In this document: positions 4,660-27,918 of the stretch, piece after piece
Layout of the letters: every line of letters begins with the position of its first letter
Numbering within the stretch: position 1 is the stretch's first letter
DNA from: Rhodococcus sp. Leaf278
GTDB lineage: Bacteria; Actinomycetota; Actinomycetes; Mycobacteriales; Mycobacteriaceae
Direction of reading: 5' to 3'
Assembly (NCBI RefSeq): GCF_001426085.1
Contig: NZ_LMRR01000002.1
Location: 324,679 to 388,678 of the forward strand
DNA length: 64,000 nt
Translations under genes and position numbers: made by a program
Notes under the pieces: model-generated
What the model saw: only the letters and a program-made list of their open reading frames with translations
What the model was told of the DNA's origin: nothing
The model's database searches: none

Positions 4660-4674
4660 ACCTGGAGTGGACGG

Positions 4675-8623: not shown

Positions 8624-8624
8624 G

Positions 8625-12149: not shown

Positions 12150-13154
12150 TCAGTGGGAGCGGCAGCGGTCGACCGCGTCGAGAATCCGGTCGACGTCGGG
12201 CAGATAGAACTTCTCGAGCTTCGACGCGGGGTACGGGGTCCCGAAGCCGCCGACGCGCAGTACCGGTGCCTCCAGGTTGTAGAAGCAGCGTTCGGAGATC
12301 CGTGCGGCGATCTCGGAGCCGATACCCATGAAGACCGGTGCCTCGTGTGTGACGACCAGACGTCCGGTCTTGCGCACCGAGGCTTCGATGGTTTCGAAGT
12401 CGATCGGGGAGAGCGAGCGCAGATCGACGACCTCGATGGAGATTCCCTCGTGGGCAGCAACTTCGGCGGCCTTGCGGGCGGTGGCGACAAGCGGGCCGTA
12501 AGCGATGAGGGTTACGTCCGTGCCCTCGGTGACCACCCGGGCCTGGTGCAGCGGGTACGACGCGTCGAGGTCGGTGGAGTCCAGGTCGATCGCGCTCTTC
12601 TCCCAGTATCGCCGCTTCGGCTCGAAGAACAACACGGGGTCGTCGCTGGCAATGGCCTGCTGGATCATCGAGTAACCATCCGCGGAATTGCTGCAGGTGA
12701 CGACGCGAAGGCCCGCGGTCTGCGCGAAGTAGCCCTCGGGAGACTCCGAGTGATGTTCGACCGCACCGATTCCGCCGCCGTAGGGCACGCGAATCGTCAT
12801 CGGAATCTTGACGTTGCCACTCGTTCGGTAGTGCAGTTTGGCGACCTGCGAGACGATCTGGTCGAAGGCCGGGTAGATGAAGCCGTCGAACTGGATCTCG
12901 CACACCGGCCGAAATCCCCGCATCGCGAGTCCGACTGCGGTGCCGACGATTCCCGATTCCGCCAGCGGCATGTCGAGTACTCGACCGGGTCCGAAGTCCT
13001 TCTGCAGTCCGTCGGTGACGCGGAAGACGCCGCCGAGCTTGCCGATGTCCTCACCCATCAGCAGGACTTTCGGGTCGTTCTCCATCGCTCGTCGCAGACC
13101 TGCATTGATGGCCTTGCCCAACGGAAGACTGGTGGGCCGTTCCAGGGTGGTCAT
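12150..13154 (-). CDS. bkdB: Branched-chain 2-oxoacid dehydrogenase E1 beta subunit
   Basis: A 334-aa transketolase-pyrimidine type subunit. It opens with the A-I-N-x-x-L-R-R-A-M helix and the LLMGEDIGKLGGVFRVTDGL block typical of E1-beta. The PYGGGIGAVEHHSESPE segment is also conserved. Its ATG overlaps the TGA of the E1-alpha gene (ATGA), so the two subunits of the heterotetramer are translationally coupled. Together they decarboxylate the oxoacids from valine, leucine and isoleucine. The adjacent Lrp regulator and valine dehydrogenase support branched-chain rather than pyruvate specificity. Confidence 0.93.
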   Translation of the reverse strand: MTTLERPTSLPLGKAINAGLRRAMENDPKVLLMGEDIGKLGGVFRVTDGLQKDFGPGRVLDMPLAESGIVGTAVGLAMRGFRPVCEIQFDGFIYPAFDQIVSQVAKLHYRTSGNVKIPMTIRVPYGGGIGAVEHHSESPEGYFAQTAGLRVVTCSNSADGYSMIQQAIASDDPVLFFEPKRRYWEKSAIDLDSTDLDASYPLHQARVVTEGTDVTLIAYGPLVATARKAAEVAAHEGISIEVVDLRSLSPIDFETIEASVRKTGRLVVTHEAPVFMGIGSEIAARISERCFYNLEAPVLRVGGFGTPYPASKLEKFYLPDVDRILDAVDRCRSH

Positions 13155-14233
13155 GACGTAGCTCCTTCGAATCCGGCTTGGTACGAGGCGAATTGGGCCC
13201 GCTCATCGTCAAGGAGGGGGTGTGGATCGGCGTAGACGTTGTCGAACACCGACATCGCTTCCGGCTCGACGGTCTCGAGGCACCCACGGCGAAGTTCCGC
13301 AGCGACGTCGTCGGCGGTGCGCTTCACCGACGCGGCGAACGCGTCGTCGAACACGCCGATTCGCTTGAGCAGCTTCTCGATTCGGTCGATCGGATCCTTG
13401 GCGCGCCATTCGTCGTCGGTGGCACCGGAGCGGTATCGCGTCGGATCGTCGGACGTGGTGTGCGGGCCCATTCGGTAGGTGACGGCCTCGATGAGCGTCG
13501 GGCCGCTGCCCTCTCGGGCTCGAGCGAGGGCGGCTCTGGTCACGGCCAGGACGGCGAGAACGTCGTTGCCGTCGACACGTACCGACGGGATTCCGTATCC
13601 CTCGCCGCGGGCGGCGATCGTCGTCTTGGTCTGTACCGTCACCGGTTCGGAGATCGCCCACTGGTTGTTCTGACAGAAGAACACCACCGGCGCATGGAAA
13701 CTGGCGGCGAAACCGAGTGCCTCGGAGATGTCGCCCTGGCTGGTTGCACCGTCACCGAAGTAGGTGATGGCCGCGCCTTCGGCTCCTTCGAGTTGCATGC
13801 CGATGGCGTATCCGGTTGCGTGCAAGCCCTGAGATCCGACGATGATCGCCGGCGTGGTCATGCGGTATTCGTACGGGTCCCAGCCGGACAGCGTCGATCC
13901 GCGCCAGAACCGGAGCATCTGGGTGGGGTCCACTCCGCGGCAGTAGGCGACGCCGTGCTCGCGGTAGCTCGCGAACACGAAGTCCTCGGAGTCGAGCGCA
14001 CGAGCGGATCCCACCTGCGCCGCTTCCTGACCGAGCAACGGCGCCCACAGACCCAGTTCGCCCTGCCGCTGCAGCGCGGTGGCCTCGGCATCGATGCGCC
14101 GGACGACGACGAGATCGCGGTACATCTCCATCATCGCGGCCGTGTCGATATCGGCGACGAGAGGCGAGTAGGTCTCGTTCCGCACCACTGTTCCCGATTC
14201 TTTGATCAGCTGAACCAGCGAGTTGGTGTTCAT
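13151..14233 (-). CDS. bkdA: Branched-chain 2-oxoacid dehydrogenase E1 alpha subunit
   Basis: A 360-aa ThDP-binding subunit. The cofactor motif starts at GDGATSQGD (160-168) and ends at N-N (189-190). The substrate-binding R-x-H-G-V-A region and the phosphorylation-loop-like YRMGPHTTSDDPTRYR segment are present. ATG at 14233 is the start that matches family length; the longer open frame upstream is not homologous. It is the first gene of a leftward operon E1-alpha, E1-beta, E2, fused E1, and lies divergent to an Lrp-family gene across a short region with a palindrome and direct repeats. Confidence 0.93.
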   Translation of the reverse strand: MNTNSLVQLIKESGTVVRNETYSPLVADIDTAAMMEMYRDLVVVRRIDAEATALQRQGELGLWAPLLGQEAAQVGSARALDSEDFVFASYREHGVAYCRGVDPTQMLRFWRGSTLSGWDPYEYRMTTPAIIVGSQGLHATGYAIGMQLEGAEGAAITYFGDGATSQGDISEALGFAASFHAPVVFFCQNNQWAISEPVTVQTKTTIAARGEGYGIPSVRVDGNDVLAVLAVTRAALARAREGSGPTLIEAVTYRMGPHTTSDDPTRYRSGATDDEWRAKDPIDRIEKLLKRIGVFDDAFAASVKRTADDVAAELRRGCLETVEPEAMSVFDNVYADPHPLLDDERAQFASYQAGFEGATS

Positions 14234-14261
14234 GGTCCTGGCACTCTCCGTCCTGATGTGA

Positions 14262-14333
14262 TGTCCTTCACAAGGACACCACCGACATCCAGAGTGCACA
14301 AGTGATGACTTCGAGACTGAGCAGCGTGCACAA
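14262..14333. promoter_or_regulatory. Palindrome and direct repeats between bkdA and the divergent Lrp gene
   Basis: TGTCCTTcacAAGGACA (14262-14278) is a 7-bp palindrome with three central bases. Two copies of GTGCACAA (14294-14301 and 14326-14333) follow 32 bases apart, about three helical turns, and the second runs into a CAATATTG dyad (14331-14338). Spaced repeats on one DNA face are the usual layout for Lrp-type regulators, which wrap DNA. The sites fit control of the bkd operon and of the regulator itself, by inference. Confidence 0.45.
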
Positions 14334-14367
14334 TATTGCGAGTCGACGGAGCTACAGGAAGTGCGCA

Positions 14368-14847
14368 ATGACCGATTTGGACAAGACCGACGCCAAGCTT
14401 CTCCTCGCCCTCTGCTCGAAGCCTCGCGCCACCGGGGTCGAACTCGCCACGACACTGGGCTTGTCGCGCAACACCGTCCAGGCGCGTCTCGGTCGATGGG
14501 ACGACAAGGGCTCACTCACCCCGATCGATCACCGCATCCCACCGAAGTCGCTGGGGCGACCCCTGCAGGCGTTCGTCACCGCACGGGTCAATCAGCACAT
14601 GCTGGCCGCGGTCACCGAGAATCTCCGCACCATCCCCGAGGTACTCGAGGTGTTCGGACTGTCCGGAGCTGCAGATATGCACATCCGCATCGCCGCCGTC
14701 GACGCCGACGACCTGTATCGCATAGCCGGCTTGATTCTCGAGATACCCGGAGTCGAGCGCACCAACATGTCCATCGCCATGTCGGAATTGATCCAATACC
14801 GCACCAAGCCGTTGCTCGAACAGCTCGCCGAAGACGGCCGACGCTGA
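14368..14847 (+). CDS. Lrp/AsnC family regulator of the bkd operon (BkdR-like)
   Basis: A 159-aa regulator with an N-terminal winged helix (LDKTDAKLLLALCSKPRATG, then LGLSRNTVQARLGRW, about 4-45) and a RAM domain (about 65-145, including VLEVFGLSGAADMHIRI). ATG at 14368 has AGGAAG seven bases upstream. It is divergent from the bkd operon and followed by valine dehydrogenase, the arrangement seen for BkdR-type activators, which respond to branched-chain amino acids. The regulatory target is inferred from position. Confidence 0.88.
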   Translation: MTDLDKTDAKLLLALCSKPRATGVELATTLGLSRNTVQARLGRWDDKGSLTPIDHRIPPKSLGRPLQAFVTARVNQHMLAAVTENLRTIPEVLEVFGLSGAADMHIRIAAVDADDLYRIAGLILEIPGVERTNMSIAMSELIQYRTKPLLEQLAEDGRR

Positions 14848-15013
14848 GCAGGCAGACCAGCTCTGCCAGACCGATTCGCTCGCCACCGTGCAAGATGCAT
14901 GATCTCGGCAACGGCGGTTGACCAGCGTGCACGTTCACGGCAGCCTACGACGGACATGATCCCGGATACCACCCATTTCCGGTACCGCCGCCTCACCACC
15001 GAAAGAGACGCCT

Positions 15014-16123
15014 GTGTCCGTCGTTGCCGACCGCCCCGCCGCCGTGACCACCCCGCCCGACCACCTGCAGTCAGGTGTCTTCGATCGTTCCGACATGCCG
15101 CGCGACTCCGCGCACGAGCGTGTCGTGTTCTGCCAGGATCGCGACACCGGGCTGCGCGCGATCATCGCGGTGCATTCCACGACCCTGGGACCGGCGCTCG
15201 GTGGAACGCGCTTCTACCCCTACGCATCCGAGCAGGATGCGCTGACCGATGTACTGCGGCTCTCCCGCGGAATGACGTACAAGGCAGCCGTCGCGGGCGT
15301 CGATCTCGGCGGCGGAAAAGCCGTGATCCTCGGTGATCCCAACGCCATCAAGACCCCGACGCTGTTGAACGCATACGGTCGATTCGTCGAGTCCCTCGGC
15401 GGAACCTACGTCACCGCAGGCGATGTGGGCACCAACAGCAACGATCTCGACATCATCGCCGAAGAGACGGCGCACGTCGTCGGCAAGAACACCACCGCGG
15501 GCGGCACCGGAGACAGCGGTCCGCAGACCGCACTCGGAGTCTTCCTGTCACTCCGGGCGGCAGCCGAATCGGTCTGGGGCTCCGACGATCTGACCGGCAA
15601 GCGCGTCGGCGTCGAGGGGGCAGGCAAGGTGGGGTACAACCTCGTGGCCCTGCTTCGTGACGCCGATGCCGAGGTGATCGTCAGTGACTCCTACCCACCC
15701 GCCCTCGATCGCATCGCCCTGGATTTCCCCGGGGTCACCATCGGTTCCGACATCATCGGTGCGGATGTCGACGTCTACGCACCGTGCGCCATGGGCGCCA
15801 CCCTCGACGCCTCCTCGGTAGCCCGATTGACGGCGTCCATCGTCTGCGGCGCGGCCAACAACCAGCTGCTCACACCCGACGTCGAAGCGATGCTGGCGGC
15901 GCGCGGAATCGTGTGGGTACCGGACTACGTCGCCAACGCCGGCGGCCTGATCCAGGTGGAAGGCGAACTGCGCGGCAAGGATTCGGCCCAGGTGATGGCC
16001 ACGATCGGGAAGATCCGCGACACCGTCTCCGGCATCTTCGCCATCGCGCGTGCCGAGGGCATTCTGCTGGGAGCCGCAGCCGATCGTCTGGCCGAAGACC
16101 GGATCGCCGCCGCGCAGGGCTGA
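15014..16123 (+). CDS. vdh: Valine/leucine dehydrogenase (Glu/Leu/Phe/Val dehydrogenase family)
   Basis: A 369-aa NAD-dependent amino acid dehydrogenase. The substrate domain has GPALGGTRFYPY, the MTYKAAVAGVDLGGGKA block with Lys90 and Lys102, and GDVGTNSNDLD, all close to Streptomyces valine dehydrogenase. The Rossmann motif G-x-G-K-V-G is at about 201-206. It should convert valine, leucine or isoleucine reversibly to the 2-oxoacid and ammonia, delivering substrate to the Bkd complex encoded 1 kb away. GTG at 15014 has a GAAAGAGA upstream. A leucine or phenylalanine preference is possible. Confidence 0.88.
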   Translation: MSVVADRPAAVTTPPDHLQSGVFDRSDMPRDSAHERVVFCQDRDTGLRAIIAVHSTTLGPALGGTRFYPYASEQDALTDVLRLSRGMTYKAAVAGVDLGGGKAVILGDPNAIKTPTLLNAYGRFVESLGGTYVTAGDVGTNSNDLDIIAEETAHVVGKNTTAGGTGDSGPQTALGVFLSLRAAAESVWGSDDLTGKRVGVEGAGKVGYNLVALLRDADAEVIVSDSYPPALDRIALDFPGVTIGSDIIGADVDVYAPCAMGATLDASSVARLTASIVCGAANNQLLTPDVEAMLAARGIVWVPDYVANAGGLIQVEGELRGKDSAQVMATIGKIRDTVSGIFAIARAEGILLGAAADRLAEDRIAAAQG

Positions 16124-16212: not shown

Positions 16213-17664
16213 CTACTGCAGCGCGATGTACTTGGTCTCGAGGTATTCCTCGATGCCCTCCGACCCGCCTTCGCGCCCGAAGCCCGATTCCTTGACGCCA
16301 CCGAACGGGGCAGCCGCGTCCGAGATCGCACCGCGATTGACCCCGACCATGCCGGTGTCCAGAGCCTCCGACACCCGGAGGGCGCGGTCGAGGTTCTCGG
16401 TGTAGAAGTACGCCACCAACCCGTAACGGGTGTCGTTGGCGGCCCCCACCGCCTCGTCCTCGGTGTCGAATCCGATCACGGCCGCGACGGGTCCGAAGAT
16501 CTCGTCCTGCAACAGATTCGCATCCGCCGGGATACTGTCGAGAACCGTCGGCGTGTAGAAGAATCCAGGTCCGTCCGGCACCGTGCCGCCCGTGCGCACC
16601 CGAGCACCCTTCGCGACGGCATCGTCGACCAAGGCTGCGACCGTTCTACGCTGTTTGTCGTTGATGAGCGGCCCGATGTCGGTGCCCTCTCGGTCACCCG
16701 CACCGACCGTCAAGGCCTCGATTCGCGCCGTCAATTTCGTGGTGAATTCCTCCCGCACCGAGTTCGCGACATACAGGCGGTTGGCTGCCGTGCAGGCCTC
16801 GCCGCCGTTGCGCATCTTCGCGAGCATTGCCCCGTCCACGGCCGCGTCGATATCCGCGTCGTCGAACACGATGAAGGGGGCATTGCCACCGAGCTCCATC
16901 GACGTCCGCAGCAAACGGTCGGCTGCGCTGCGTACCAACAGCTTTCCGACTCCGGTCGATCCGGTGAACGTGACCTTCCTCAGTCTCGGGTCGTCCATCA
17001 GCGGTCCGGTGACCGCCGCAGCGTCGGAGGCCGGAAGTATCGAGAGCACCCCGCTGGGCAACCCCGCATCGGCGAACACCTGCCCGAGAAGGAGCATCGT
17101 GAGCGGAGTGTCCTCGGCCGGCTTGACGATGACGGTGCATCCGGCAGCCAGGGCGGGCCCGATCTTGCGCGTTCCCATGGCCAACGGAAAGTTCCACGGG
17201 GTGATGGCCAGCACCGGGCCGACGGGCATCTTGGTCACCAGAATTCGGCCGTTGCCTGCCGGCGCAGGGGTGTACCGTCCGCCGATCCGAACGGCTTCCT
17301 CGCTGAACCAGCGTAGGAATTCGCCGCCGTAGTTCACTTCACCGCGGCTCTCCGCCAACGACTTCCCCATTTCGAGGGTCATCAACAAAGCGAAATCGGC
17401 GGCGCGCGCCTGCAGCAGGTCGAAGGCACGCCGCAGAATCTCCGCCCGCTCCCGGGCCGGAGTTGCCGCCCACGCTCCCTGTGCCGCAGCCGCCAGATCG
17501 AGCGCGGTGATCCCGTCGGCCGCCGTGGCGTCGGCGACGGTGGTCAACTCCTCGCCGGTCGCCGGGTTCAGTACCGAGAATCGGGCACCCGACGCCGACG
17601 GAGACTGGGCTCCGCCGAGCCAGAGATCGGTGGGCAGCGAGGCGATCAAATCCTGAGCCGACAT
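16213..17664 (-). CDS. gabD: Succinate (or glutarate) semialdehyde dehydrogenase
   Basis: A 483-aa aldehyde dehydrogenase. The ITPWNFP motif, the F-T-G-S-T-G-V-G coenzyme site, general base Glu257 in MELGG and nucleophile Cys291 in NGGEACTAANR are all present. The C-terminal AAPFGGVKESGFGREGG segment is typical of GabD. The start ATG at 17664 lies one base after the stop of gabT, so they form one unit. It should oxidise succinate semialdehyde to succinate with NAD(P). If the pathway starts from lysine it would act on glutarate semialdehyde (DavD role). Confidence 0.9.
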   Translation of the reverse strand: MSAQDLIASLPTDLWLGGAQSPSASGARFSVLNPATGEELTTVADATAADGITALDLAAAAQGAWAATPARERAEILRRAFDLLQARAADFALLMTLEMGKSLAESRGEVNYGGEFLRWFSEEAVRIGGRYTPAPAGNGRILVTKMPVGPVLAITPWNFPLAMGTRKIGPALAAGCTVIVKPAEDTPLTMLLLGQVFADAGLPSGVLSILPASDAAAVTGPLMDDPRLRKVTFTGSTGVGKLLVRSAADRLLRTSMELGGNAPFIVFDDADIDAAVDGAMLAKMRNGGEACTAANRLYVANSVREEFTTKLTARIEALTVGAGDREGTDIGPLINDKQRRTVAALVDDAVAKGARVRTGGTVPDGPGFFYTPTVLDSIPADANLLQDEIFGPVAAVIGFDTEDEAVGAANDTRYGLVAYFYTENLDRALRVSEALDTGMVGVNRGAISDAAAPFGGVKESGFGREGGSEGIEEYLETKYIALQ

Positions 17665-17665
17665 G

Positions 17666-19030
17666 TCAGTTCCCCTGTGCCACAGAGCGAAGCGCACCTT
17701 CGAGGACGGTGAGCGCGTCGTCCAACAGCTCGTCGGACATCACCAGGGGCGGCAGCAAGCGGATGACGTTGCCGTAGGTACCGCACGTCAACACGATCAC
17801 CCCGGCCTCGAGTGCCGCAGCCGCAACGGCTTTGGTGGCCTCGGGGTTGGGCTCGCGTCCACCGGGCACAACCAGCTCGACGGCCAGCATGGCGCCGCGT
17901 CCGCGAATGTCACCGATGATGGAGACGTCCGGAGTCAACGCATGCAGTCGGTCGAGCACGATGCGTTCGATCTCGCGGGCGCGGGCATTGAGGTCGAGCG
18001 TCTCCATCTGCTCGATGGACGCCAGTGCGGCAGCGCACGCGACAGGATTGCCGCCGTACGTCCCGCCGAGTCCGCCGGGGTGCACGGCGTCGATCAGGTC
18101 GGCGCGGCCCGTGACCGCAGCCAGCGGCATTCCGCCCGCGATGCCCTTCGCCATGGTGATCAGGTCCGGCACGACGCCCTCGTGCTCACTGGCGAACCAG
18201 GCACCGGTTCGGGTGAATCCGGATTGCACCTCGTCGGCGATGAAGACGACGTCGTTCTCGCGCGCCCAGTTCACCAGTGCAGGCAGGAAACCCTCGGCCG
18301 GTACGACGAAGCCGCCCTCACCCTGAATCGGCTCGATGAGGATGGCCGCGAGATTGGCTGCGCCCACCTGCTTCTCGATGACCGAGATCGCTCGTGCGGC
18401 AGCCTGCGCGCCGGTGACCGTAGAACCGTCGGCGTTGAGTCCTTCCCGGAAGGGGTAGGACATCGGGGCCCGATAGACCTCGGGAGCGAACGGCCCGAAA
18501 CCGCTCTTGTACGGCATCGACTTCGAGGTCAGTGCCATCGTCAGGTTGGTGCGGCCGTGGTAGGCGTGGTCGAACACGGCGACCGCTGTGCGTCCGGTGG
18601 CGTGCCGGGCGATCTTGACCGCATTCTCGACTGCCTCGGCACCGCTGTTGAACAGGACCGTGCGCTTGTCGTGATCTCCGGGGGTGAGCTCGGCCAACTT
18701 CTCGGCAACGGCGATGTAGCCCTCGTACGGCGCGATCATGAAGCAGGTGTGAGTGAAGTGCGCGACCTGATCCTGCACGGCGGCAACGACAGCCGGGTTC
18801 GAGGCACCGACGGTCGTCACGGCGATTCCGGCACCGAGATCGATCAGCGAGTTTCCGTCCACATCGACGACGACGCCGCCGTCCGCGTCCGCCACATAAA
18901 CCGGCAGCGTCGACGCAACGCCTGCACCGACGACGGCCTTGCGGCGCTCCGCCAATGCCGACGACTTGGGTCCGGGGAACGCGGTGACAATGTTGCGCTC
19001 TTGCGGAAGTCGGTACTCGATCGAGGCCAT
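17666..19030 (-). CDS. gabT: 4-aminobutyrate (or 5-aminovalerate) aminotransferase
   Basis: A 454-aa class III PLP aminotransferase. The FNSGAEAVENAVKIAR block binds the cofactor phosphate, EPIQGEGG and IADEVQSGFTRTG carry the conserved Glu and Asp, and Lys295 in TMAKGIAGG should form the Schiff base. It moves the amino group of GABA to 2-oxoglutarate, giving succinate semialdehyde for the next gene product. ATG at 19030 has AAAGGTGCGACC upstream. It is divergent from a PucR regulator. Activity on 5-aminovalerate is equally compatible with the sequence. Confidence 0.9.
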   Translation of the reverse strand: MASIEYRLPQERNIVTAFPGPKSSALAERRKAVVGAGVASTLPVYVADADGGVVVDVDGNSLIDLGAGIAVTTVGASNPAVVAAVQDQVAHFTHTCFMIAPYEGYIAVAEKLAELTPGDHDKRTVLFNSGAEAVENAVKIARHATGRTAVAVFDHAYHGRTNLTMALTSKSMPYKSGFGPFAPEVYRAPMSYPFREGLNADGSTVTGAQAAARAISVIEKQVGAANLAAILIEPIQGEGGFVVPAEGFLPALVNWARENDVVFIADEVQSGFTRTGAWFASEHEGVVPDLITMAKGIAGGMPLAAVTGRADLIDAVHPGGLGGTYGGNPVACAAALASIEQMETLDLNARAREIERIVLDRLHALTPDVSIIGDIRGRGAMLAVELVVPGGREPNPEATKAVAAAALEAGVIVLTCGTYGNVIRLLPPLVMSDELLDDALTVLEGALRSVAQGN

Positions 19031-19150
19031 GGTCGCACCTTTCATCTGGGCTGGTCCAGCAAGTATGCGGCTGTTCGATCGCCCGGTCGGCTGCCATTTC
19101 GTCCATCTCATAGGCGGATCACACTCCGTTTCGTCGACCCTGGGATTACA

Positions 19151-20644
19151 GTGCGAGATGTGAGCGTGCAGATGTCCTGGCTGCTGAGGCAGCGACACCT
19201 TCGACTGAGTCATCGCGGCGGGCCCGAGCGCAGTTCTGAGTCCATCACCTTCGCGCAAGCAACCGAACTGATCGACCCCAGCCCCTGGCTATCGGGTGGC
19301 GAGCTGATTCTGACGACCGGGCTGGGCTTCGACTCCGACGGTCCCGCGCTCGACACCTACGTTCGCACCCTGTCGACCGCGGGTGTCGCGTGCCTCGGAT
19401 TCGGAACCGGTCTGTCCCACAGCACTATTCCCCAACATATTCTCGACGCCGCAGACGACGTGGGCCTGCCGGTCGTGGAAGTTCCGTACGACACTCCGTT
19501 CGCTGCCGTCATACGGGCGGTCATGAAGCGAATCTCCGAGCAGGAGTACGAGCAGGTCGTTCGCGCTGCGTCGGTGCAGAACCGCATCACCCGGGCAGCT
19601 CTGCACGGCGGCGTCGACGCGATCGTCCGGGAACTCGCCGTTGCGACATCGACATCGGTGGCATTGATCGGCCGGCGCACCGAATCGTTTCATCCGACAG
19701 ACGCGTCGAACCTCGTCGACCAGGCTCGTGACATCGCTCGCAGCATCCGTCCGTCGGCGTCGCCCGCCACGGTCTCGGTGAGCGAACCGGGTCGAACGGT
19801 GAGTCTGCATTCTGTCCCGATCACCGGCAGCGCTTCGACTTTCCTGGCCATCCGCACCACTGGACCGATGACCGGCGTCGAGCAAATCCTGCTCGGGCAT
19901 GCCGTGTCACTGGTGACGCTCGAACTCGAGAAGCCGGCGCGCCTGCGCGCCGAACAGTCCAGGCTCAACACCCTGGCGCTCGGACTGCTCCTCGACGGAC
20001 ACCTGACCACGGACGTTCCCAGCTACCTCACCGATGCCGCCGACGAGGACTCTCTCATCAGGGTGGCAGTGGTTCGCGGACCATCCGAACGCATCGTCGA
20101 CGCGATCGATGCCGAGTGTCGGCTCCGGGGGCGGCCCACCTTCGCCCGAACCACCGACACCGGCTGCGCGCTTCTGCTCCGCGGCTCCGACGACATCACA
20201 TTCGTTGCGCGCCTACTGGATTCGTTACCCCGATCGACGTGCGCCGGCCTCAGCGCCCGCCTGCACATCACCGAGTCCCCCGCAGCGCTCCGACAAGCCT
20301 CGCTCGCCTGCGCGGCTGCCGGATCCCACGATCGCGTCGTCGAATTCACCGGATCGATGTTGTTGGCCTCCGAACCGGTGCAGGAGTCGTTGCGTGCCAT
20401 GGCCGCGGTGACCATCGCCGTGCTGGCCGAGTACGACCGCGTCCACACCGCCGATCTGGTGGCGTCACTTCGGGCCTTCCTCGAGGCCAACGGGCACTGG
20501 GAGACCGCGGCCGCGCAATTGTCCGTTCACCGGCACACGCTCCGTAACCGCATCACGCGCTGCGAGGAACTACTCGCGGTGGATCTGACATCCGCGCGGG
20601 TGCGCGCGGAGTTGTTGCTCTCACTGCTTGCCACGACGGCGTGA
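19151..20644 (+). CDS. PucR family transcriptional regulator
   Basis: A 497-aa regulator. The N-terminal PucR domain (about 1-110) includes WLSGGELILTTG and G-x-G-x-G motifs; a GGDEF-like middle region follows; the C-terminal helix-turn-helix (about 440-485) reads ANGHWETAAAQLSVHRHTLRNRI. GTG at 19151 is chosen because the conserved ITVRD start of the family falls there and CTGGGA lies upstream; GTG at 19160 is an alternative. It is divergent from gabT-gabD and probably activates them. PucR regulators control nitrogen-source catabolism such as purines and GABA. Confidence 0.85.
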   Translation: MRDVSVQMSWLLRQRHLRLSHRGGPERSSESITFAQATELIDPSPWLSGGELILTTGLGFDSDGPALDTYVRTLSTAGVACLGFGTGLSHSTIPQHILDAADDVGLPVVEVPYDTPFAAVIRAVMKRISEQEYEQVVRAASVQNRITRAALHGGVDAIVRELAVATSTSVALIGRRTESFHPTDASNLVDQARDIARSIRPSASPATVSVSEPGRTVSLHSVPITGSASTFLAIRTTGPMTGVEQILLGHAVSLVTLELEKPARLRAEQSRLNTLALGLLLDGHLTTDVPSYLTDAADEDSLIRVAVVRGPSERIVDAIDAECRLRGRPTFARTTDTGCALLLRGSDDITFVARLLDSLPRSTCAGLSARLHITESPAALRQASLACAAAGSHDRVVEFTGSMLLASEPVQESLRAMAAVTIAVLAEYDRVHTADLVASLRAFLEANGHWETAAAQLSVHRHTLRNRITRCEELLAVDLTSARVRAELLLSLLATTA

Positions 20645-20672
20645 CCGTCGGCAATCGTGTCAGGATCTGTCG

Positions 20673-21383
20673 ATGACCACGCCTCGTCCTGAACCCCACA
20701 TCGCTGTCGCTACCGCGAAGTCGGTTCGACTCGGGGTACTCCTGGCCGCAGTCGGGGGGTTTCTCGACGCCTACACCTACGTCACTCGCGGCGGTGTGTT
20801 CGCAGGTGCGCAGACCGGAAACGTGGTCCTTCTCGGCGTCGACGTCGCCGGCGGTCGGTGGGTCGAAGCGCTGGCGTTCCTACCCCCGTTGACGGCATTC
20901 GTACTCGGCGTTGCGACCGCGGAGTTCATCGCCTTACCCGCGGTGGCAAAGATCGTGCGACGGCCGGTGCGCGCGGTGCTGGTGTTCGAGATCCTGGTGG
21001 TCCTGATCGTCGGCTTTCTCCAGGCCACCGTGCCCGACGCCGTGGTCGCGGTCATCCTCGCGCACGTGGCGGGCGTGCAGGTGACCACCTTCCGTGTGTT
21101 GGTGGATTCGCCGTTCAACACCACGATGACTACCGGAAACCTCCGCAGCATGGCGATGGCGGCATTCCATCGGGTCGTCGACCACGATCGCGAGGCCGGC
21201 ACGCGGGCACGACGGTTCGGCGCGGTGATCTCCGGGTTTCTCGGCGGGGCGATGGTGGGCGCAGCTGCGGTAGAACTGTTCGGGCTACGAGCGATCTGGG
21301 TCGTAGCCCTGATGTTGACGATCGCGTTGGCACTGTTCGTGTTCGACGAGCGAGCACCGCGGTCGCTGCCGCCGAAGGGCTAG
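20673..21383 (+). CDS. DUF1275 (YoaK) family membrane protein
   Basis: A 236-aa protein with about six hydrophobic segments. The N-terminal AAVGGFLDAYTYVTRGGVFAGAQTGNVV block and the central PFNTTMTTGNLR block are the two repeats that define DUF1275. ATG at 20673 has AGGA seven bases upstream. It is 28 bases after the PucR gene and its last four bases overlap the end of the convergent monooxygenase gene. The function of the family is unknown; a transport or permeability role in the nearby catabolic pathway is possible but unsupported. Confidence 0.85.
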   Translation: MTTPRPEPHIAVATAKSVRLGVLLAAVGGFLDAYTYVTRGGVFAGAQTGNVVLLGVDVAGGRWVEALAFLPPLTAFVLGVATAEFIALPAVAKIVRRPVRAVLVFEILVVLIVGFLQATVPDAVVAVILAHVAGVQVTTFRVLVDSPFNTTMTTGNLRSMAMAAFHRVVDHDREAGTRARRFGAVISGFLGGAMVGAAAVELFGLRAIWVVALMLTIALALFVFDERAPRSLPPKG

Positions 21384-23065
21384 TCGCCCAATCGAAGTGG
21401 CGCAATGGCCTCGAATACGTCGCCCGGTCCCGGATTACCCTCGGCCGAAGAACCGCCCAGATGATGCACGACGCCCCACACCGCGTTCAGGGCCGTATGA
21501 ATTGCACCTTCCGCCCAGCCCGCGGTCCACGAGATGTCGTCGCCGGCCAGGAATATCCCTCGGTGTCGGGGGTCGAGCTCGTCCTGCACGAAGTGGGTGA
21601 ACAGTCTCTCCTGATAGCGGTAGTGACCCGGCAAGTTCGCCTTGAAGGCCCCCATGAAATCGCGTTCGGTTTCCCAGGACAGCGTCACCGGCGTCGAGAT
21701 GATGTGGCTGCGGAAATCGACGCCGGGATAGATCTCCTCGAGCGAGCGCAGCATGATGTTCATCCGCTCGGTCGGGTCGAGGGCGAGGAGCTTGAGCGAA
21801 TCGTCGGACCAGGTGTAGGACAGGCAGATCAGCCCGGGCTTGCCCTCGCCTTGTTCGAGCAGGTAGGTGCCGCGGCTCATTCGGTCGGTCAGCGTCATGC
21901 TGACCAGGTCTCGCCCGGTGACCGGATCCTTGTCCTTCCAGAACGGCCGATCGACGAGTGCGAACACTTTGGTCGACCCCATGTAGTGGGTGCGTTCGAT
22001 GGCGGTCCAGTGATCGATGGGGAACAGATCGTCGTCACATCTGATGTTGCTGAGCAACATCCAGCTCTGCGCAGTCACAACGGCAGCGGCATAGGTTCGG
22101 ATGTTGCCGCGGTCGTCGTGGATCGTGGTGCCGCCGTCGGTGCGCCTGATCTCGGTGACCCGCGACATCGTGGTGCCGCCGTTCAGGGAGGACACCGACG
22201 TACCCGCGGGCCAGTGCGCCATGTTCGTGGGCGAGTCGGTCCACAACCGCATCGGCAGTTGCTGTGAACCGCCGACGATTCCGCGATGGTGATCGTCCGC
22301 TGCCGTGATGACGACGCGAAGGATCTCGAGAATCGAGTTGGGATAATCGGTGTCCCAACCACCCGTTCCGAAACCCACCTGCCCGAACAACTCTCGCATC
22401 CGGAACGACGAAAAGTGCTCGGACGCAGCGAGGAAGCCGTAGAAGGTCTGATCGTCGAACTTCACGATCAGCTCGTTCCATATTCGCTTGATCTCGGCGA
22501 CGTCCCGCTTGCGAATGGCACGCTGGAGCGGAATCAGTTCGGCATGGTCCTCGAGCGTCCGGTTCCACGCGTCGGCAACCTCGGCGAACATCGGCGGAAG
22601 GTCGTCGAGCTTGCGGGCATAATGGCTCTCCCCCTTGAGGTCGATCACCGTACTGGGAGTCACCTCGGCCAGCGGGTTCGGAAACGGTGTCGTCTCGAGC
22701 CCGACGGCGTCGAGATAGTGGAACAGCGTGGTCGACGACGGCGGAAACCGCATCGCACCCATCTCGGCCACCACACCGGGGTGCCCCTCGAACGGTACCG
22801 AGCGCATGCGCCCACCGATCCGATCCGACTCGTACACCACCGGTTCGAGACCGAGCGCGAGCAACTCGCGCGCGACGACCATCCCCGCGAGTCCGCCGCC
22901 GATCACCGCGACCTGGGTACCGAGGGCCGACTCCGGAATGCTCCCGAGACCGGCCGGATGCGCGAGGTAGTCGTCGTACGCGAACGGGAAATCCGGGCCG
23001 AACATGGTGAGCGGCTGATCGTTCTCGACTTCGATCGAACTGTCCGGGGTGACGGGTGTGGTCAT
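21380..23065 (-). CDS. Flavin amino-acid 2-monooxygenase (arginine/lysine 2-monooxygenase type)
   Basis: A 561-aa FAD enzyme. The dinucleotide fold has AVIGGGLAGMV (53-63). Features shared with lysine 2-monooxygenase DavB and tryptophan 2-monooxygenase include GPDFPFAYDDYLAHPAGLGS, EMGAMRFPPSSTTLFHYL, the WETERDF/GAFKANLPGHYRYQ region and a C-terminal AGDDISWTAGWAEGA, ending NPGPGDVF as in DavB. It should oxidatively decarboxylate an L-amino acid to the amide one carbon shorter. The next gene upstream is an amidase, overlapped ATGA. A ureohydrolase nearby favours arginine as substrate, giving 4-guanidinobutyramide; lysine (giving 5-aminovaleramide) is the alternative. Confidence 0.85.
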   Translation of the reverse strand: MTTPVTPDSSIEVENDQPLTMFGPDFPFAYDDYLAHPAGLGSIPESALGTQVAVIGGGLAGMVVARELLALGLEPVVYESDRIGGRMRSVPFEGHPGVVAEMGAMRFPPSSTTLFHYLDAVGLETTPFPNPLAEVTPSTVIDLKGESHYARKLDDLPPMFAEVADAWNRTLEDHAELIPLQRAIRKRDVAEIKRIWNELIVKFDDQTFYGFLAASEHFSSFRMRELFGQVGFGTGGWDTDYPNSILEILRVVITAADDHHRGIVGGSQQLPMRLWTDSPTNMAHWPAGTSVSSLNGGTTMSRVTEIRRTDGGTTIHDDRGNIRTYAAAVVTAQSWMLLSNIRCDDDLFPIDHWTAIERTHYMGSTKVFALVDRPFWKDKDPVTGRDLVSMTLTDRMSRGTYLLEQGEGKPGLICLSYTWSDDSLKLLALDPTERMNIMLRSLEEIYPGVDFRSHIISTPVTLSWETERDFMGAFKANLPGHYRYQERLFTHFVQDELDPRHRGIFLAGDDISWTAGWAEGAIHTALNAVWGVVHHLGGSSAEGNPGPGDVFEAIAPLRLGD

Positions 23066-23883
23066 CGGTCGGTCTCCTGCTCGGCCCGCGAGGGTCCTGT
23101 CGGGTAGAGGTCGCTACGGCGATCGGCCAGGTGGGTATTGACGGCGCGTGATCGTTGGAGTTCGGACGGATCCAGATCCACCGTCAACAGCTGTTCGTGC
23201 ACGCCTGCACGCGCGATGTCGGTGCCGTCCGGTGCAACGGCGCACGTGAGTCCGCAGTACGTCAGACTCGCCTCGAATCCGCAGCGGTTCACGTAGGTGA
23301 TGAACAGTTGACTCTCGTACGCCCGCGTCGGGACCACGTGGGTTGCGATGATCTCGAACGGCGTCATCAAACCGGTCGGGACGATCAACCAGTGCGTTCC
23401 GGCATCGGCGTGGGCACGCACCGTCTCCGGGAATTCGACGTCGTAGCAGGTGAGCAGGCCGCAGCGCAGACCTCCGAAGTCGAACTGCACCAACAGTTCC
23501 GGCCCGGGAGTGAAATGCGTGCGATCGAGATCACCGAACAAATGGGTCTTGCGGTACCGCGCGATCGAGCGCCCGGAAGAATCCACCACCTGCACCGAAT
23601 TGAACACGGAATCACCGCTGCTCTCGGGATACCCGTACACGATCGCAACAGTTCTCGATCGCGCGATCGCGGCGATGCGCTCGAAGATCGGACCGTCGAA
23701 CGGTTCGGCGCGCTCGCTCACGAGATCCCCGATGTCGTAGCCACTGGCCGACATCTCCGGCGTGACCAGAATGGATGCCCCTGCTGCGGACGCGCTCGCC
23801 GCGGCAGCGTCGATCGCCGAGAGGTTGCTCTCGACATCGCCGGAGAACTCCGGACCCTGGAACAGCGCTGCGGTGACGCTCAC
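23062..23883 (-). CDS. Carbon-nitrogen hydrolase (omega-substituted amidase)
   Basis: A 273-aa nitrilase-superfamily amidase. The catalytic triad is visible as Glu43 (TPEMS), Lys112 (YRKTHLFGD) and Cys146 (LTCYDVEFPE). Size and motifs fit the DavA type, which opens 5-aminovaleramide, and the corresponding 4-guanidinobutyramide amidases. GTG at 23883 overlaps the stop of the XRE-cupin gene (GTGA), and its own stop overlaps the monooxygenase start (ATGA), so three genes are coupled. It should hydrolyse the amide made by the monooxygenase to the acid and ammonia. Confidence 0.87.
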   Translation of the reverse strand: MSVTAALFQGPEFSGDVESNLSAIDAAAASASAAGASILVTPEMSASGYDIGDLVSERAEPFDGPIFERIAAIARSRTVAIVYGYPESSGDSVFNSVQVVDSSGRSIARYRKTHLFGDLDRTHFTPGPELLVQFDFGGLRCGLLTCYDVEFPETVRAHADAGTHWLIVPTGLMTPFEIIATHVVPTRAYESQLFITYVNRCGFEASLTYCGLTCAVAPDGTDIARAGVHEQLLTVDLDPSELQRSRAVNTHLADRRSDLYPTGPSRAEQETDR

Positions 23884-24500
23884 GAGGAAGGACCCTGTGT
23901 CGTCTCGGGTAACGCCGGGGCCAGAACCCACAACACCTGTGCGCCACCGCCGCCCTCGCTGCGAAAACTGTGCGGTCGCCTGGGCGAGAAGGTGAACGCG
24001 TCGCCCGCACCGAGCAGAACATCGTCACCGCCGAAGGTGCCGTCGGGGTCCGCCTCGAAGGTCACCCGCACCTGGCCGGACAAGACGTGCACGAAGGTGA
24101 CGTCCAACGGCAGGGTGTATGCCTCCGCGCCGCTGCCGCCGCCCTCCTCGATATCGCCCAGCAGTACCTGCACACGCCGCTCCCCCGCCGGAGTCAACAG
24201 ATATTCCGTCATCGCCTCACCACCGAACACGATGCGCGGCAACGACTGTGCTCGAACGACGTCACCCGCCGGGGCATCGTCGAACAGCGAGCCGACCGGT
24301 ACGTCGAGCGCAGCACAGACCCGCACCAACGACGCGACCGACGCATTCACCTGATCACGCTCGAGCTTGGAGAGGTACCCCTTGGTCACCCCGCACGTAT
24401 CGGCGAGCGCGTCCAGGGTCAACCGTTTCTTCTGCCGTGCCTCCTTGAGCCGCGCGCCGATACGCGGTGCGTCGTTCTCGACCGAAGCAGCAACCGACAC
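23880..24500 (-). CDS. XRE regulator with C-terminal cupin domain (PuuR-like)
   Basis: A 206-aa regulator. The helix-turn-helix is at about 14-68 ([37 protein letters not shown]). The cupin covers about 110-200, with barrel strands [11 protein letters not shown] and [18 protein letters not shown]. This architecture is that of PuuR-type repressors of polyamine and GABA catabolism, which bind a small ligand in the cupin. It is first in the coupled set regulator-amidase-monooxygenase and divergent from the ureohydrolase gene, so it is well placed to control both. The ligand is not known. Confidence 0.88.
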
Positions 24501-24526
24501 CGTTATCGCCTCTCAGGAAACTCGTG

Positions 24527-24555
24527 TTGACAAGATCGAGTATCAGAGTAACGCT
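24527..24555 (+). promoter_or_regulatory. Possible promoter for the ureohydrolase gene
   Basis: A perfect TTGACA (24527-24532) is followed after 16-17 bases by TAACGC/AACGCT (24549-24555). The element lies 60 bases before the ATG at 24616 in the 115-base region shared with the XRE-cupin gene. The -10 match is only fair. Confidence 0.4.
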
Positions 24556-24615
24556 TGCCGGGCGAACTGGTCGACCTTCGTCACCGGAGCCCTCGAAATT
24601 CGAAAGGAATTCTCG

Positions 24616-25575
24616 ATGAACCTGAGCAATCCCGAGCACCCACCGATCGGTCCGGTCGACGCCACCAAGGTCCCCCGCTACGCCGAGCCGACCACCTTCG
24701 CGCGTCTGCCCCGTCTCGACGAGGTGTCCAGGGCCGACGTGACCATCCTCGGCGTCCCGTTCGATTCCGGCGTGAGTTACCGCCCGGGAGCGCGTTTCGG
24801 CCCGGGTCACATCCGAGCGGCCTCCAAACTGTTGCGGCCCTACAACCCTGCGCTGAAAGTGTCACCCTTCGCCCGTCAACAGGTGGCGGACTTCGGCGAC
24901 ATCGGGGTCAATCCGTTCGACATCAGCGAGGCCCTGACCACGGTGCACGACGCGGTGACGGACTTGCGCGCGGACGGCTCGTCGGTTCTCACCCTCGGCG
25001 GCGACCACACCATCGCTCTGCCGATCCTGCGATCGCTCGCACGCGATCACGGGCCGATAGCGGTGCTGCACTTCGATGCTCACCTCGACACGTGGGACAC
25101 GTACTTCGGCGCGCCCTACACACACGGGACGCCGTTCCGGCGAGCCAGCGAGGAAGGGCTCATCGACCTCGAACGCTCGCAGCACATCGGCATTCGCGGC
25201 CCTCTCTACAGTGAGCAGGACCTCGAGGACGACCGGGTGCTCGGCTTCCAGGTGATCCGCTCCGACGACTACGAGGTCGACGGCGTGGCGAGCATCGTGG
25301 AGCGGATGCGTCGCCGCCTCGACGGTGGCCCGGTGTATGTCTCGGTCGACATCGACGTACTCGACCCGGCACACGCTCCGGGCACCGGTACTCCCGAAGC
25401 CGGAGGAATGACCTCTCGCGAACTGCTGAACACACTGCGTGGACTCGTCGGACTGAATGTGGTCGGTGCCGACATCGTCGAGGTCGCTCCCGCGTACGAC
25501 CACGCCGAGATCACCGGAATAGCGGCGGCCCACGTTGCGTACGAACTGCTTTCGGTGCTGGCCCTCAACCGATAG
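24616..25575 (+). CDS. Ureohydrolase, agmatinase/guanidinobutyrase family
   Basis: A 319-aa arginase-fold enzyme. The two-manganese ligands are all there: His131 in GGDHT, Asp154, His156 and Asp158 in HFDAHLD, and Asp245 and Asp247 in SVDIDVLDP. Overall the protein resembles agmatinase and guanidinobutyrase (GbuA) more than arginase, for example [18 protein letters not shown] and RPYNPAL. It should release urea from a guanidino compound. Because it neighbours an amino-acid monooxygenase and an amidase, and GABA genes, 4-guanidinobutyrate is the most likely substrate. ATG at 24616 has AAAGGA eight bases upstream. Confidence 0.85.
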
Positions 25576-25579
25576 AACG

Positions 25580-26479
25580 TCATCGCCGGGGCAACACCAG
25601 GATCGGCACCGGCGAATGGCGGATGATCTTGGTCGCCCGCGAACCGAGGAACACCCGAGCGATGGGCCCCAACGGTCCGGACGATCCGATGGTCAGTACT
25701 TCGCCGTCCTGCCAGTGCACTTCGTCGAGGGCTTCGCGCCAGCTGCCGGCCGAGGCCAGCTCCGTTGTCACCTGTTCGGCCGGAAGTCCCACCGCAACAG
25801 CGTCGTCCACCGCCGCGGTGAGTGCCTCGCTCAGCCCCCGGGCGAGTTCGGCGGCAACATCGTCCTCGGCACGCAGTCCGATCTCGGGTGGGTACATCGT
25901 CGCCCCGCGCACGACGAACGACGCCAATCGCAGTGCAATGCCCGCATCCCTGGCCAGTTCCGCGGTCGGTCCCACCACGCGCGAGGCCTCGCTGTCACCG
26001 GAGAACGCACAGGTGATCCGTGTCAACGTCGCACGTTCACGCATGCGATATCCGCGCGGAGCGAGCGCCACCGTCACCGGCGAGGAGTGCAGCAACTTGT
26101 CTGCGGTCGACCCGACGACCACCTGCCCGAGCGCCCCGTCGCCCGAGGAACCGAGAACCAGAACCGAAGCGGAGAGGTTCAGTGATGCTTCGGTCAACGC
26201 GGTCGACACCGAGCGATGCGCCAGACGATGGAACGATGCCGTGATGTCCGGGGCCCGGTCTTCGAGGTAGTGCCGGGCCTTCGCCTCGGACTCGGCGGCC
26301 GTCACCGCCGCCCAATCCGCGAACTCGGCATCGACGCGAGCCATGGACGGCGTGGACCACGGCTTGGGCACCACCGTCGCAACGTCGATATCGGTACCCG
26401 AAGACCGCGCGAGTTGGGCACCGAGGTCGAGGGCACCGACACTGCCCTTTCCCGGCGCGAAGGCGATCAGAACGCTCAT
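25580..26479 (-). CDS. Universal stress protein, two tandem Usp domains
   Basis: A 299-aa protein with two Usp domains. Each keeps a G-x2-G-x9-G-S/T nucleotide loop: first GSSGDGALGQVVVGST (about 126-141), then GSSGPLGPIARVFLGS near the C-terminus. ATG at 26479 overlaps the stop of the permease gene (ATGA), so the two are coupled. Usp domains of this type bind ATP. Coupling of a Usp to a transporter suggests control of transport, by analogy with other Usp-transporter pairs; this is not proven. The stop is five bases from the convergent ureohydrolase stop. Confidence 0.87.
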   Translation of the reverse strand: MSVLIAFAPGKGSVGALDLGAQLARSSGTDIDVATVVPKPWSTPSMARVDAEFADWAAVTAAESEAKARHYLEDRAPDITASFHRLAHRSVSTALTEASLNLSASVLVLGSSGDGALGQVVVGSTADKLLHSSPVTVALAPRGYRMRERATLTRITCAFSGDSEASRVVGPTAELARDAGIALRLASFVVRGATMYPPEIGLRAEDDVAAELARGLSEALTAAVDDAVAVGLPAEQVTTELASAGSWREALDEVHWQDGEVLTIGSSGPLGPIARVFLGSRATKIIRHSPVPILVLPRR

Positions 26480-27918
26480 TCCGCGTCCTTTCCAACCGAT
26501 CGAAGCGCCGAATGATGTCGACCCCACAGGAAGTAGAACGCGAGAACCACGGCGAGCCAGAGCCCGAACCAGAACCAGGTGGTCCACCGCAGACCCGAGA
26601 GGATGTACACGCATGCAGCAACCGACAACACCGGCGTCACCGGGTAGCCCGGCACCTTGAACGGGCGCTCCAGCTCCGGCATCGTCCGACGAAGCACGAC
26701 AACCCCGATCGCCACGACGATGAACGCGACGAGCGTTCCTATCGAGACCAGATCGGCCAGCTTGTCCAGCGGAATGAACGCAGCGAGTATCGAGATGATC
26801 ACTGCGACCACGATCGTGTTGTTGACCGGGGTGTGCGTGCGCGGACTGACTTTGGCAAACGCCTTCGGCAACATGCCGTCTCGGCCCATGGCAAACAGAA
26901 TGCGTGTCTGCCCGTACATCGTCACCAGGGTCACCGAGAAGATCGAGATGACTGCGCCGGCCGCCAGAATCGTTGCCGGCCAGGCCTGCCCGGTGACGTT
27001 GCGGAGAATCTCGGCCAAGCCCGCTTCCTCCTGACCGGCGAAGGCGGTCCACGGCTGAGTCCCCAGAGCCGACACCGCGACCACGAGGTAGAAGACGATG
27101 ACGACGATGAGCGCCGCAATGATGGCCCGCGGCATGGTCTTCTGCGGATTCTTCACCTCGTCGCCCGCGGTGGACACCGCGTCGAGTCCGATGAACGAGA
27201 AGAAGATGGTGCCTGCGGCTGCCGTGACACCGGCAGTACCCAAGGGCATGAAATCGGAGAAGTTCCCCGAATCGAAGGCGGAGAATCCGACGACCGCGAA
27301 CAGTGCGAGCACACCGAGTTTGATGACGACCATGACCGCATTGACTGCAGCGGATTCACTGGCACCGCGAATGAGGAGCACTGCGCACAACACGATCAGC
27401 ACCACAGCAGGCAGGTTCATCACTCCCGGATCGGCGTCACCCGGTGCAGCGGACAACGCATGCGGGATGGTGAAACCGAAGAGATTGTTGAGCAGTTCGT
27501 TGAGATACCCGCTCCACCCCACCGCTACGGCGGCACTCGACACCCCGTACTCGAGCAGCAGACAGGCAGCGACCCCCATCGCGACCACCTCGCCCATCGT
27601 CACGTACGCGTACGAGTAGGTAGAGCCGGAAACCGGCACTGCCGACGCCATTTCGGCGTAACAGATAGCGGCGAGACCGGCCGCGATACCGGCCGCCAGG
27701 AACGAGAGCACCACCGCCGGACCGGCTTCCGGGACGGCGAGCGAGAGCACGAAGAAAATACCGGTGCCGATGGTGGCCCCGACTCCGAACATCGTCAGTT
27801 GGAACGTGCCGATGGTGCGTTCGAGCCCCCCGCTGCCCTGCTGATCGGGGTCCACGATCGGCTTCTTGCGGAGCAACTGTGATCGCAGCCCCGATGCGGG
27901 TCTCTTCGACGAAGTCAT
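26476..27918 (-). CDS. APC superfamily cationic amino acid permease (CAT type)
   Basis: A 480-aa membrane protein with about 12 hydrophobic segments. The start of the first helix, FGVGATIGTGIFFVLSLAVPEAGPAVVLSF, and the YAEMASAVPVSGSTYSYAY segment define the APC group; the long AFDEVKNPQ-like DAVSTAGDEVKNPQKTMPRAI loop is typical of cationic amino acid transporters. ATG at 27918 has GGAGAG upstream. It should import arginine, lysine or a related basic compound by proton symport, supplying the pathway encoded at 16213-25575. It is coupled to a Usp protein and divergent from a PucR-type regulator. Confidence 0.88.
   Translation of the reverse strand: MTSSKRPASGLRSQLLRKKPIVDPDQQGSGGLERTIGTFQLTMFGVGATIGTGIFFVLSLAVPEAGPAVVLSFLAAGIAAGLAAICYAEMASAVPVSGSTYSYAYVTMGEVVAMGVAACLLLEYGVSSAAVAVGWSGYLNELLNNLFGFTIPHALSAAPGDADPGVMNLPAVVLIVLCAVLLIRGASESAAVNAVMVVIKLGVLALFAVVGFSAFDSGNFSDFMPLGTAGVTAAAGTIFFSFIGLDAVSTAGDEVKNPQKTMPRAIIAALIVVIVFYLVVAVSALGTQPWTAFAGQEEAGLAEILRNVTGQAWPATILAAGAVISIFSVTLVTMYGQTRILFAMGRDGMLPKAFAKVSPRTHTPVNNTIVVAVIISILAAFIPLDKLADLVSIGTLVAFIVVAIGVVVLRRTMPELERPFKVPGYPVTPVLSVAACVYILSGLRWTTWFWFGLWLAVVLAFYFLWGRHHSALRSVGKDAE

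Follow-up and report, generated by a model that had tools for sequence, protein, structure and literature searches.

Degradation of arginine through an L-arginine oxygenase is known from the biochemistry of Streptomyces, Arthrobacter and Brevibacterium, in which the route comprises EC 1.13.12.1, an amidase and EC 3.5.3.7. Pseudomonas aeruginosa has an arginine transaminase route with AruH, AruI, KauB and GbuA. Here, a gene cluster is described from Rhodococcus sp. Leaf278, in a stretch of 64,000 nucleotides (the window) on contig C2 of a 5.72-Mb genome assembled in 45 contigs. We assign a probability of about 0.8 to the proposal that this cluster encodes an arginine 2-monooxygenase route from L-arginine to succinate. 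Its predicted chemistry is the same, step for step, as that of the oxygenase route of Streptomyces, Arthrobacter and Brevibacterium. The P. aeruginosa route ends, as predicted for the window, in 4-guanidinobutyrate, a guanidinobutyrase and 4-aminobutyrate (GABA), but unlike the window route it starts with transamination.

According to a 2007 survey, Streptomyces griseus was the species in which a conversion of arginine to GABA was first recognized, from the products formed; the survey files the S. griseus route as an oxidase/dehydrogenase pathway whose first enzyme was not yet characterized (PMC2242806). Streptomyces griseus NRRL WC-3645 contains exactly one relative of the window monooxygenase at E<=1e-15 (69% identical), which is a candidate for the first enzyme of that route. 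An earlier note on this DNA knew of no gene cluster for the full arginine route in this group, and no description of such a catabolic cluster was found in the open-access PMC literature, where no search was directed at the residue split or at the control site (see below) by itself. The pathway chemistry is already known. For this oxygen-using conversion of arginine to GABA, expected from older biochemistry, the cluster allows the genes, their regulator and a control site to be predicted.

In the proposed route, all substrates, the import of the amino acid and the control of the genes are predictions; observed directly are the presence, order and overlaps of the genes, their joint inheritance, the place of the monooxygenase in a tree, its pocket residues and a conserved motif. 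A permease would import the amino acid, and a flavin monooxygenase would carry out the oxidative decarboxylation of arginine, yielding 4-guanidinobutyramide. The next enzyme, a nitrilase-fold amidase, would hydrolyse this amide to 4-guanidinobutyrate with loss of ammonia. A ureohydrolase would then split off urea, leaving GABA, which GabT would convert to succinate semialdehyde and GabD to succinate. The urea would pass to a urease, the alpha subunit of which is encoded elsewhere in the host genome. An XRE-cupin regulator probably controls both the ureohydrolase gene and the amidase-monooxygenase operon from a shared intergenic site. All genes listed in the earlier note were recovered by profile matches where it had placed them and in the families it had named, and the amidase triad it pointed out (Glu43, Lys112 and Cys146) is present when counted from the GTG start at 23883; the XRE-cupin regulator gene was absent from its list.

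The arginine interpretation, already put forward in that note, is supported by the association of the ureohydrolase with the monooxygenase. One set of 81 genomes, made up of the host genome and those of 80 relatives, was searched for both the monooxygenase and PF00491 proteins; 37 of them belong to the window's genus. Within the genus, 31 of the 37 genomes encode the monooxygenase, and all 31 have the ureohydrolase (E about 1e-93 to 1e-95) on the same contig. The two genes are divergent in every pair, with a median gap of 1681 bp (range 744-9045). Because the linkage holds in 31/31 genomes, the arrangement is beyond chance. None of the six genus genomes without the monooxygenase has this ureohydrolase clade; the PF00491 gene present in one of them, G003, is distant (33% identical). 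Among the other 44 genomes, six encode the monooxygenase: the ureohydrolase is linked to it in G037, G047 and G048 and lies on another contig in G041, while G061 has none and G063 only a weak, distant match in the same search. Co-occurrence across genomes, which the earlier note had proposed as a check, thus came out in favour of the arginine route.

Loci from other genera (the best 80 of 586) were read by tblastn with the window proteins. In all three Geodermatophilus loci (L129-L131) and in Mycobacterium sp. ST-F2 (L138), the ureohydrolase gene is divergent from an XRE-permease-amidase-monooxygenase run. Tsukamurella sputi (L132) has the same five genes in another order, and Blastococcus (L128) has ureohydrolase-XRE-monooxygenase. 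In Haloechinothrix (L134) and in L049 (genome G047), amidase, monooxygenase and ureohydrolase genes follow each other on one strand, and L064 (genome G384) additionally has gabT and two gabD-like genes. In the stretches examined, Streptomyces and Amycolatopsis loci show an amidase-monooxygenase pair, often with the permease, and gave no match to the ureohydrolase.

In a wider sample of the phylum, 16 of 396 genomes encode the monooxygenase (E<=1e-60). A ureohydrolase at E<=1e-50 is present in 16/16 of these, but also in 101 other genomes; at E<1e-120, a threshold chosen after the list had been seen, it is present in 14/16 genomes with the monooxygenase versus 23/380 without (Fisher 3e-14). These are not 16 independent events, because eleven of the genomes belong to one genus, Streptomyces. 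Among 121 Streptomyces genomes, 115 encode the monooxygenase and 116 the ureohydrolase (E<=1e-110); four lack both genes, two lack the monooxygenase only and one lacks the ureohydrolase only (Fisher 9e-6, kinship ignored). Some of these absences may be assembly gaps, since two of the seven genomes concerned (G521 and G548) are only 82% and 78% complete.

The best Protein Data Bank (PDB) match of the window monooxygenase is the lysine enzyme 3we0 (727 bits), while tryptophan 2-monooxygenase scores 207 bits. With the 3WE0 enzyme, AIU 813, and with the Pseudomonas DavBA-DavTD system, the window shares the enzyme family, the Arg/Tyr/Asp substrate contacts and an amidase partner. In an alignment to AIU 813 numbering, Arg102, Trp235, Asp238, Tyr416, Trp418 and Phe473 are retained, so that the basic-side-chain pocket of the L-AAO/MOG family (Arg102, Trp235, Asp238, Tyr416 and Trp418) is kept at 5/5 positions. 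At positions 254, 258 and 515, the window enzyme has Ala, His and Gly, whereas DavB and AIU 813 have Cys254 and Ala515; in its own numbering, its pocket residues are W237, D240, A256, H260 and G516. In AIU 813, Asp238 is reported to contact the charged end of the substrate and Ala515 to line the pocket, and the C254I change made monooxygenase activity undetectable; tryptophan and phenylalanine monooxygenases are described as having a wider pocket, with Gly in place of Ala515 (PMC5832979).

After a length filter of 520-620 residues, outside which 4/358 proteins fell, the nine-residue signature RWDAHYWFG was found, among the matches listed, in 115/118 window-like and 116/117 Streptomyces-like proteins, and RWDCQYWFA in 117/119 AIU 813-like proteins, one of the other two having Gly515. 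For the two pocket positions alone, Gly515 with Ala254 occurs in 115/118 window-like proteins and Ala515 with Cys254 in 117/119 AIU 813-like proteins, again among the matches listed. Metagenome sources name relatives of the window enzyme lysine or tryptophan 2-monooxygenase, and residues 515 and 254 offer a simple test by which a family so labelled could be re-annotated. A second monooxygenase of the same genus (L055:8673-10334, genome G013; 51-52% identical), located beside a nitrilase match, probably acts on a different substrate, because Ser replaces Asp238, the binder of basic side chains. A protein recorded from the fungus Zasmidium cellare (P0284) is 85% identical to the AIU 813 enzyme and is the result of contamination or transfer.

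A maximum-likelihood tree (LG+C20) was built from 52 rows, of which 42 were chosen by the author from 134 and ten were added proteins. AIU 813, four Pseudomonas proteins, Rhodoferax, L054, L053, L066 and L067 form a clade at 100/100, here called the lysine clade after AIU 813, its other members being placed by the tree and not by assay; support for the union of L064, L065 and L055 with this clade is 100/99. The window monooxygenase is placed outside the lysine clade, among five Rhodococcus-type rows (98/96) within a weaker group (85/71) that includes Nocardioides, Gordonia, Tsukamurella and others. Together with the two differing pocket residues, this position calls for a correction of the label 'DavB type' given to the enzyme in the earlier note. 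The tree suggested in that note agrees with the arginine route in this placement and was realized in part: of the reference groups, lysine enzymes of the AIU 813 type and Streptomyces enzymes linked to polyketides are included, whereas monooxygenases for tryptophan or phenylalanine are not. The Streptomyces enzymes encoded by second gene copies form a clade with L051 at 100/99. No strongly supported fork joins the window and polyketide-linked clades, and the deep order of the non-lysine clades is poorly supported; the root is unsure because the branch of the outgroup, L052, is very long. Among the matches listed, the closest relatives of the window enzyme are in Rhodococcus and Rhodococcoides (94% identical in Rhodococcoides fascians NBRC 12155).

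The ureohydrolase has a complete two-metal His/Asp site (H131, D154, H156, D158, D245 and D247) and matches guanidinopropionase 3nip (281 bits), guanidinobutyrase 3nio (271 bits), proclavaminate amidinohydrolase (245 bits) and the putative agmatinase 4dz4 (211 bits) in the PDB. It is about equally near to GpuA and GbuA. Its Arg74 stands at the position of GbuA Arg72, which comes from the neighbouring subunit and, as described in PMC9772407, could reach the substrate carboxylate; the putative agmatinase 4dz4 has Ala there. Escherichia coli agmatinase is reported to use Trp68 from the neighbouring subunit (PMC8125230). At the position of GbuA Met161, the window enzyme has Tyr163, with which Tyr157 of GpuA aligns, and a 4-guanidinobutyrate-specific enzyme of Aspergillus niger is likewise described with Tyr (PMC10833137). 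The Arg and Tyr pair occurs in 68 of the 79 aligned ureohydrolase sequences, GpuA included. As the ureohydrolase gene is the only PF00491 gene found in the host genome, no separate arginase or agmatinase of the PF00491 family is encoded. In a Streptomyces locus (L207:7170-11362), a relative of the ureohydrolase is flanked by a sodium:solute symporter and a thiamine pyrophosphate (TPP) enzyme, for which 5-guanidino-2-oxopentanoate decarboxylase is the second-best model (351 bits, below the cut-off of 500). Because of this neighbour, that ureohydrolase clade may also serve a 2-ketoarginine route.

Several observations weigh against the arginine route or its generality. Three genus genomes (G002, G022 and G036; loci L047, L058 and L084) have the monooxygenase, XRE and ureohydrolase genes with no amidase match nearby, and GabT and GabD genes are near the cluster in only part of the loci. 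In Streptomyces, the monooxygenase is near-core (115/121) and no ureohydrolase lies near any first-copy locus read, whereas in the window the two are clustered together with the XRE regulator and a candidate control site. L067 is placed inside the lysine clade and has Gly515 and a nearby, 48%-identical ureohydrolase, while L064 and L065, sister to that clade, carry the window signature. Gly515 and Ala254 may only mark ancestry: because 16 alignment columns in all separate the groups, position 515 is taken as a marker of the group and only perhaps as a cause of specificity. Further, AIU 813, which has the same Asp238, uses lysine, ornithine and arginine as a monooxygenase, with kcat/Km values reported as 74, 200 and 24, respectively (PMC5832979), so the pocket residues leave lysine and ornithine possible as substrates of the window enzyme. 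The cluster might then encode a broad basic amino-acid oxygenase acting on arginine, ornithine and lysine, with the ureohydrolase serving the arginine branch only. Although the breadth of AIU 813 and the retained Asp238 contact speak for such an enzyme, the constant linkage of the ureohydrolase in the genus suggests that arginine dominates, and we consider this explanation unlikely.

Quite improbable, in our view, is a dedicated lysine route in which DavB, DavA, DavT and DavD would lead to glutarate and the ureohydrolase would be an unrelated neighbour. The first enzyme would belong to the same family, the closest structure is a lysine enzyme, and lysine 2-monooxygenase is a name already attached to some relatives. 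GabT and GabD can also serve 5-aminovalerate. The name davBA has been given to an actinobacterial operon in a publication where none of the davBA strains named, that of P. putida included, made product (PMC8274714). Against this stand the ureohydrolase linked in 31/31 genus genomes, the place of the window enzyme outside the AIU 813 clade by tree and pocket residues, and L054, which has AIU 813-type residues and gabT/gabD and no ureohydrolase nearby. In addition, a dedicated lysine 6-aminotransferase, over its cut-off, is encoded elsewhere in the host genome, so lysine has another likely exit. On the tree, residues, linkage and this aminotransferase, the lysine route was rejected as the principal interpretation. 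Also considered was the assignment of the ureohydrolase as an agmatinase or 3-guanidinopropionase, in which case the cluster would not be one pathway. The protein passes the NCBIfam agmatinase model TIGR01230 (234 bits versus a cut-off of 174), which counts against a guanidinobutyrase, its Tyr163 matches GpuA Tyr157, and 3nip is the top PDB match by 10 bits. The agmatinase name is, however, weak evidence, because the human protein so called has been found to act as a guanidino-acid hydrolase (PMC9772407). Moreover, Arg74 sets the window enzyme apart from 4dz4, Tyr is shared with the A. niger enzyme, and the gene is linked to the monooxygenase. No PF01276 or PF17810 arginine decarboxylase that could make agmatine was matched in the host genome, a pyruvoyl-type decarboxylase not having been searched for. 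The residues and decarboxylase searches make an agmatinase unlikely, and the whole explanation appears very remote beside a 4-guanidinobutyrase of the arginine route.

The motif GAAAC-N5-TTGAC, which contains a TTGACA-like -35 element, was picked by eye from 19 sequences upstream of the ureohydrolase and then scanned in 120 loci. It was found upstream of the ureohydrolase in 24 of the 25 loci with XRE, ureohydrolase and monooxygenase matches (20/21 after removal of duplicates), but in 0/13 loci with ureohydrolase and monooxygenase and no XRE match (0/12 distinct), and in 0/80 monooxygenase loci without a ureohydrolase above 60% identity. Overall, 32 exact sites occur in 2.35 Mb, where base composition predicts 0.8; this count is not an independent test because the pattern was derived from the same loci. 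Second copies provide partly independent support: in eight loci from seven genomes (L075, L119-L121 and L128-L131), a further site is directed towards the gene that immediately follows XRE, whether for the permease, the amidase or the monooxygenase. The exact motif occurs once in the window, between the divergent XRE and ureohydrolase genes, whereas one-mismatch forms (three matches versus 2.67 expected) are near expectation; thus only the exact form is informative. The XRE-cupin protein is predicted to bind this motif.

A wider proposal can be put forward tentatively, at somewhat less than an even chance. Actinomycetota would have a dedicated arginine-oxygenase regulon with an XRE-cupin switch at GAAAC-N5-TTGAC; the family annotated there as lysine or tryptophan 2-monooxygenase, near-core in Streptomyces, would consist mostly of arginine monooxygenases; and the Gly/Ala change at 515 would mark, and may set, the choice between arginine and lysine. 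The near-core Streptomyces relative is hard to square with a published statement that Streptomyces lividans is without an arginine monooxygenase and needed fed 4-guanidinobutyramide (PMC5082578), a counterpoint, like the breadth of AIU 813, to the arginine route of the window as well. Among the 120 matches listed for the Streptomyces violaceorubidus enzyme, in which names are abbreviated, there is no S. lividans or S. coelicolor name. Either S. lividans is one of the few without the gene, or the gene was silent there, or the near-core enzyme is not specific for arginine.

Similar chemistry is found in the formation of arginoketide starter units. The starter genes of azalomycin, ECO-02301 and lydicamycin are described as providing arginine monooxygenase and 4-guanidinobutyramide hydrolase steps (PMC5082578), as predicted here. 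In those systems the acid passes to a CoA ligase and a polyketide synthase, whereas in the window it would pass to the ureohydrolase and GabT/GabD. The pocket residues Gly515 and Ala254 of the window enzyme are shared by 7/7 second-copy Streptomyces monooxygenases (59-62% identical to it), enzymes of a kind that has been assigned to arginine. Two of the second-copy loci (L200 and L206) are near polyketide synthase genes, L206 and L205 have an AMP-ligase and a VinK-like transacylase, and relatives of these two L206 proteins occur in L201-L204. A similar gene set has been assigned to a 4-guanidinobutyryl starter (PMC4572681), to which the seven second-copy loci are likened by gene content and not by matching to named producers. 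Arginine catabolism and the formation of arginine-derived starter units for polyketide antibiotics would be linked by their common use of monooxygenase and amidase reactions. In L201 (16835-17758, genome G506), a ureohydrolase with His at the GbuA Met161 position lies about 7 kb from the second-copy monooxygenase and may act on a polyketide guanidine.

Table 1. Features of the predicted arginine 2-monooxygenase cluster (window positions).
Feature	Position	Strand	Evidence
GabD-like aldehyde dehydrogenase	16213..17664	-	PF00171; best NCBIfam model TIGR01780, 544 bits, below cut-off of 646
GabT, 4-aminobutyrate aminotransferase	17666..19030	-	TIGR00700, 609 bits, above cut-off of 507; NF004714, 796 bits, above 639
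PucR-family regulator adjoining gabT, start codon unsettled	19118..20644	+	PF07905, PF13556
Amino-acid 2-monooxygenase (flavin amine oxidase), predicted L-arginine 2-monooxygenase	21380..23065	-	PDB matches, residues, tree
Nitrilase-fold amidase, predicted 4-guanidinobutyramide amidohydrolase	23062..23883	-	PF00795; best PDB match an amidase, 141 bits
XRE-cupin regulator, opening the XRE-amidase-monooxygenase run	23880..24500	-	PF01381, PF07883
GAAAC-N5-TTGAC, candidate control site in the divergent XRE-ureohydrolase intergenic region	24517..24531	+	Motif scan
Arginase-family ureohydrolase, predicted 4-guanidinobutyrase	24616..25575	+	PF00491; PDB matches; residues
APC/CAT-like permease, candidate basic amino-acid importer	26476..27918	-	PF13520, PF13906

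Four-base overlaps join the XRE stop to the amidase start (GTGA) and the amidase stop to the monooxygenase start (ATGA), and because of these overlaps the three genes probably form a single transcript. A stretch of 115 bases separates the ureohydrolase gene from the XRE start. The GabD named in the earlier note is indeed of the aldehyde dehydrogenase family, but its match to the succinate semialdehyde dehydrogenase model falls short of the cut-off (Table 1). Similarly, the permease, called CAT-type in that note, is of APC/CAT-like type, but among named models a branched-chain transporter fits it best and stays below its cut-off (505 versus 690 bits). For this reason it was rejected as proof of arginine uptake, and basic amino acids are only candidate substrates for it. 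In loci of Geodermatophilus, Tsukamurella, Mycobacterium and Amycolatopsis, the amidase gene has a relative of the permease (50-54% identical) as its immediate neighbour.

Among the neighbouring genes, those at 12150-16123, beside the cluster, were read by eye from their translations as 2-oxoacid dehydrogenase E1 subunits, an Lrp-like regulator and an amino acid dehydrogenase of the Leu/Phe type. They are perhaps a branched-chain module, and the best model of the cluster permease is likewise branched-chain. A gene for a DUF1275/YoaK-like membrane protein (by eye; 20628-21383) is convergent to the monooxygenase gene and, among the loci read, was matched only in the closest relatives. Elsewhere, L067:6505-10453 (genome G236) combines an AIU 813-clade monooxygenase that has Phe254 and Gly515 with a nearby ureohydrolase in which Met occupies the position of GbuA Met161.

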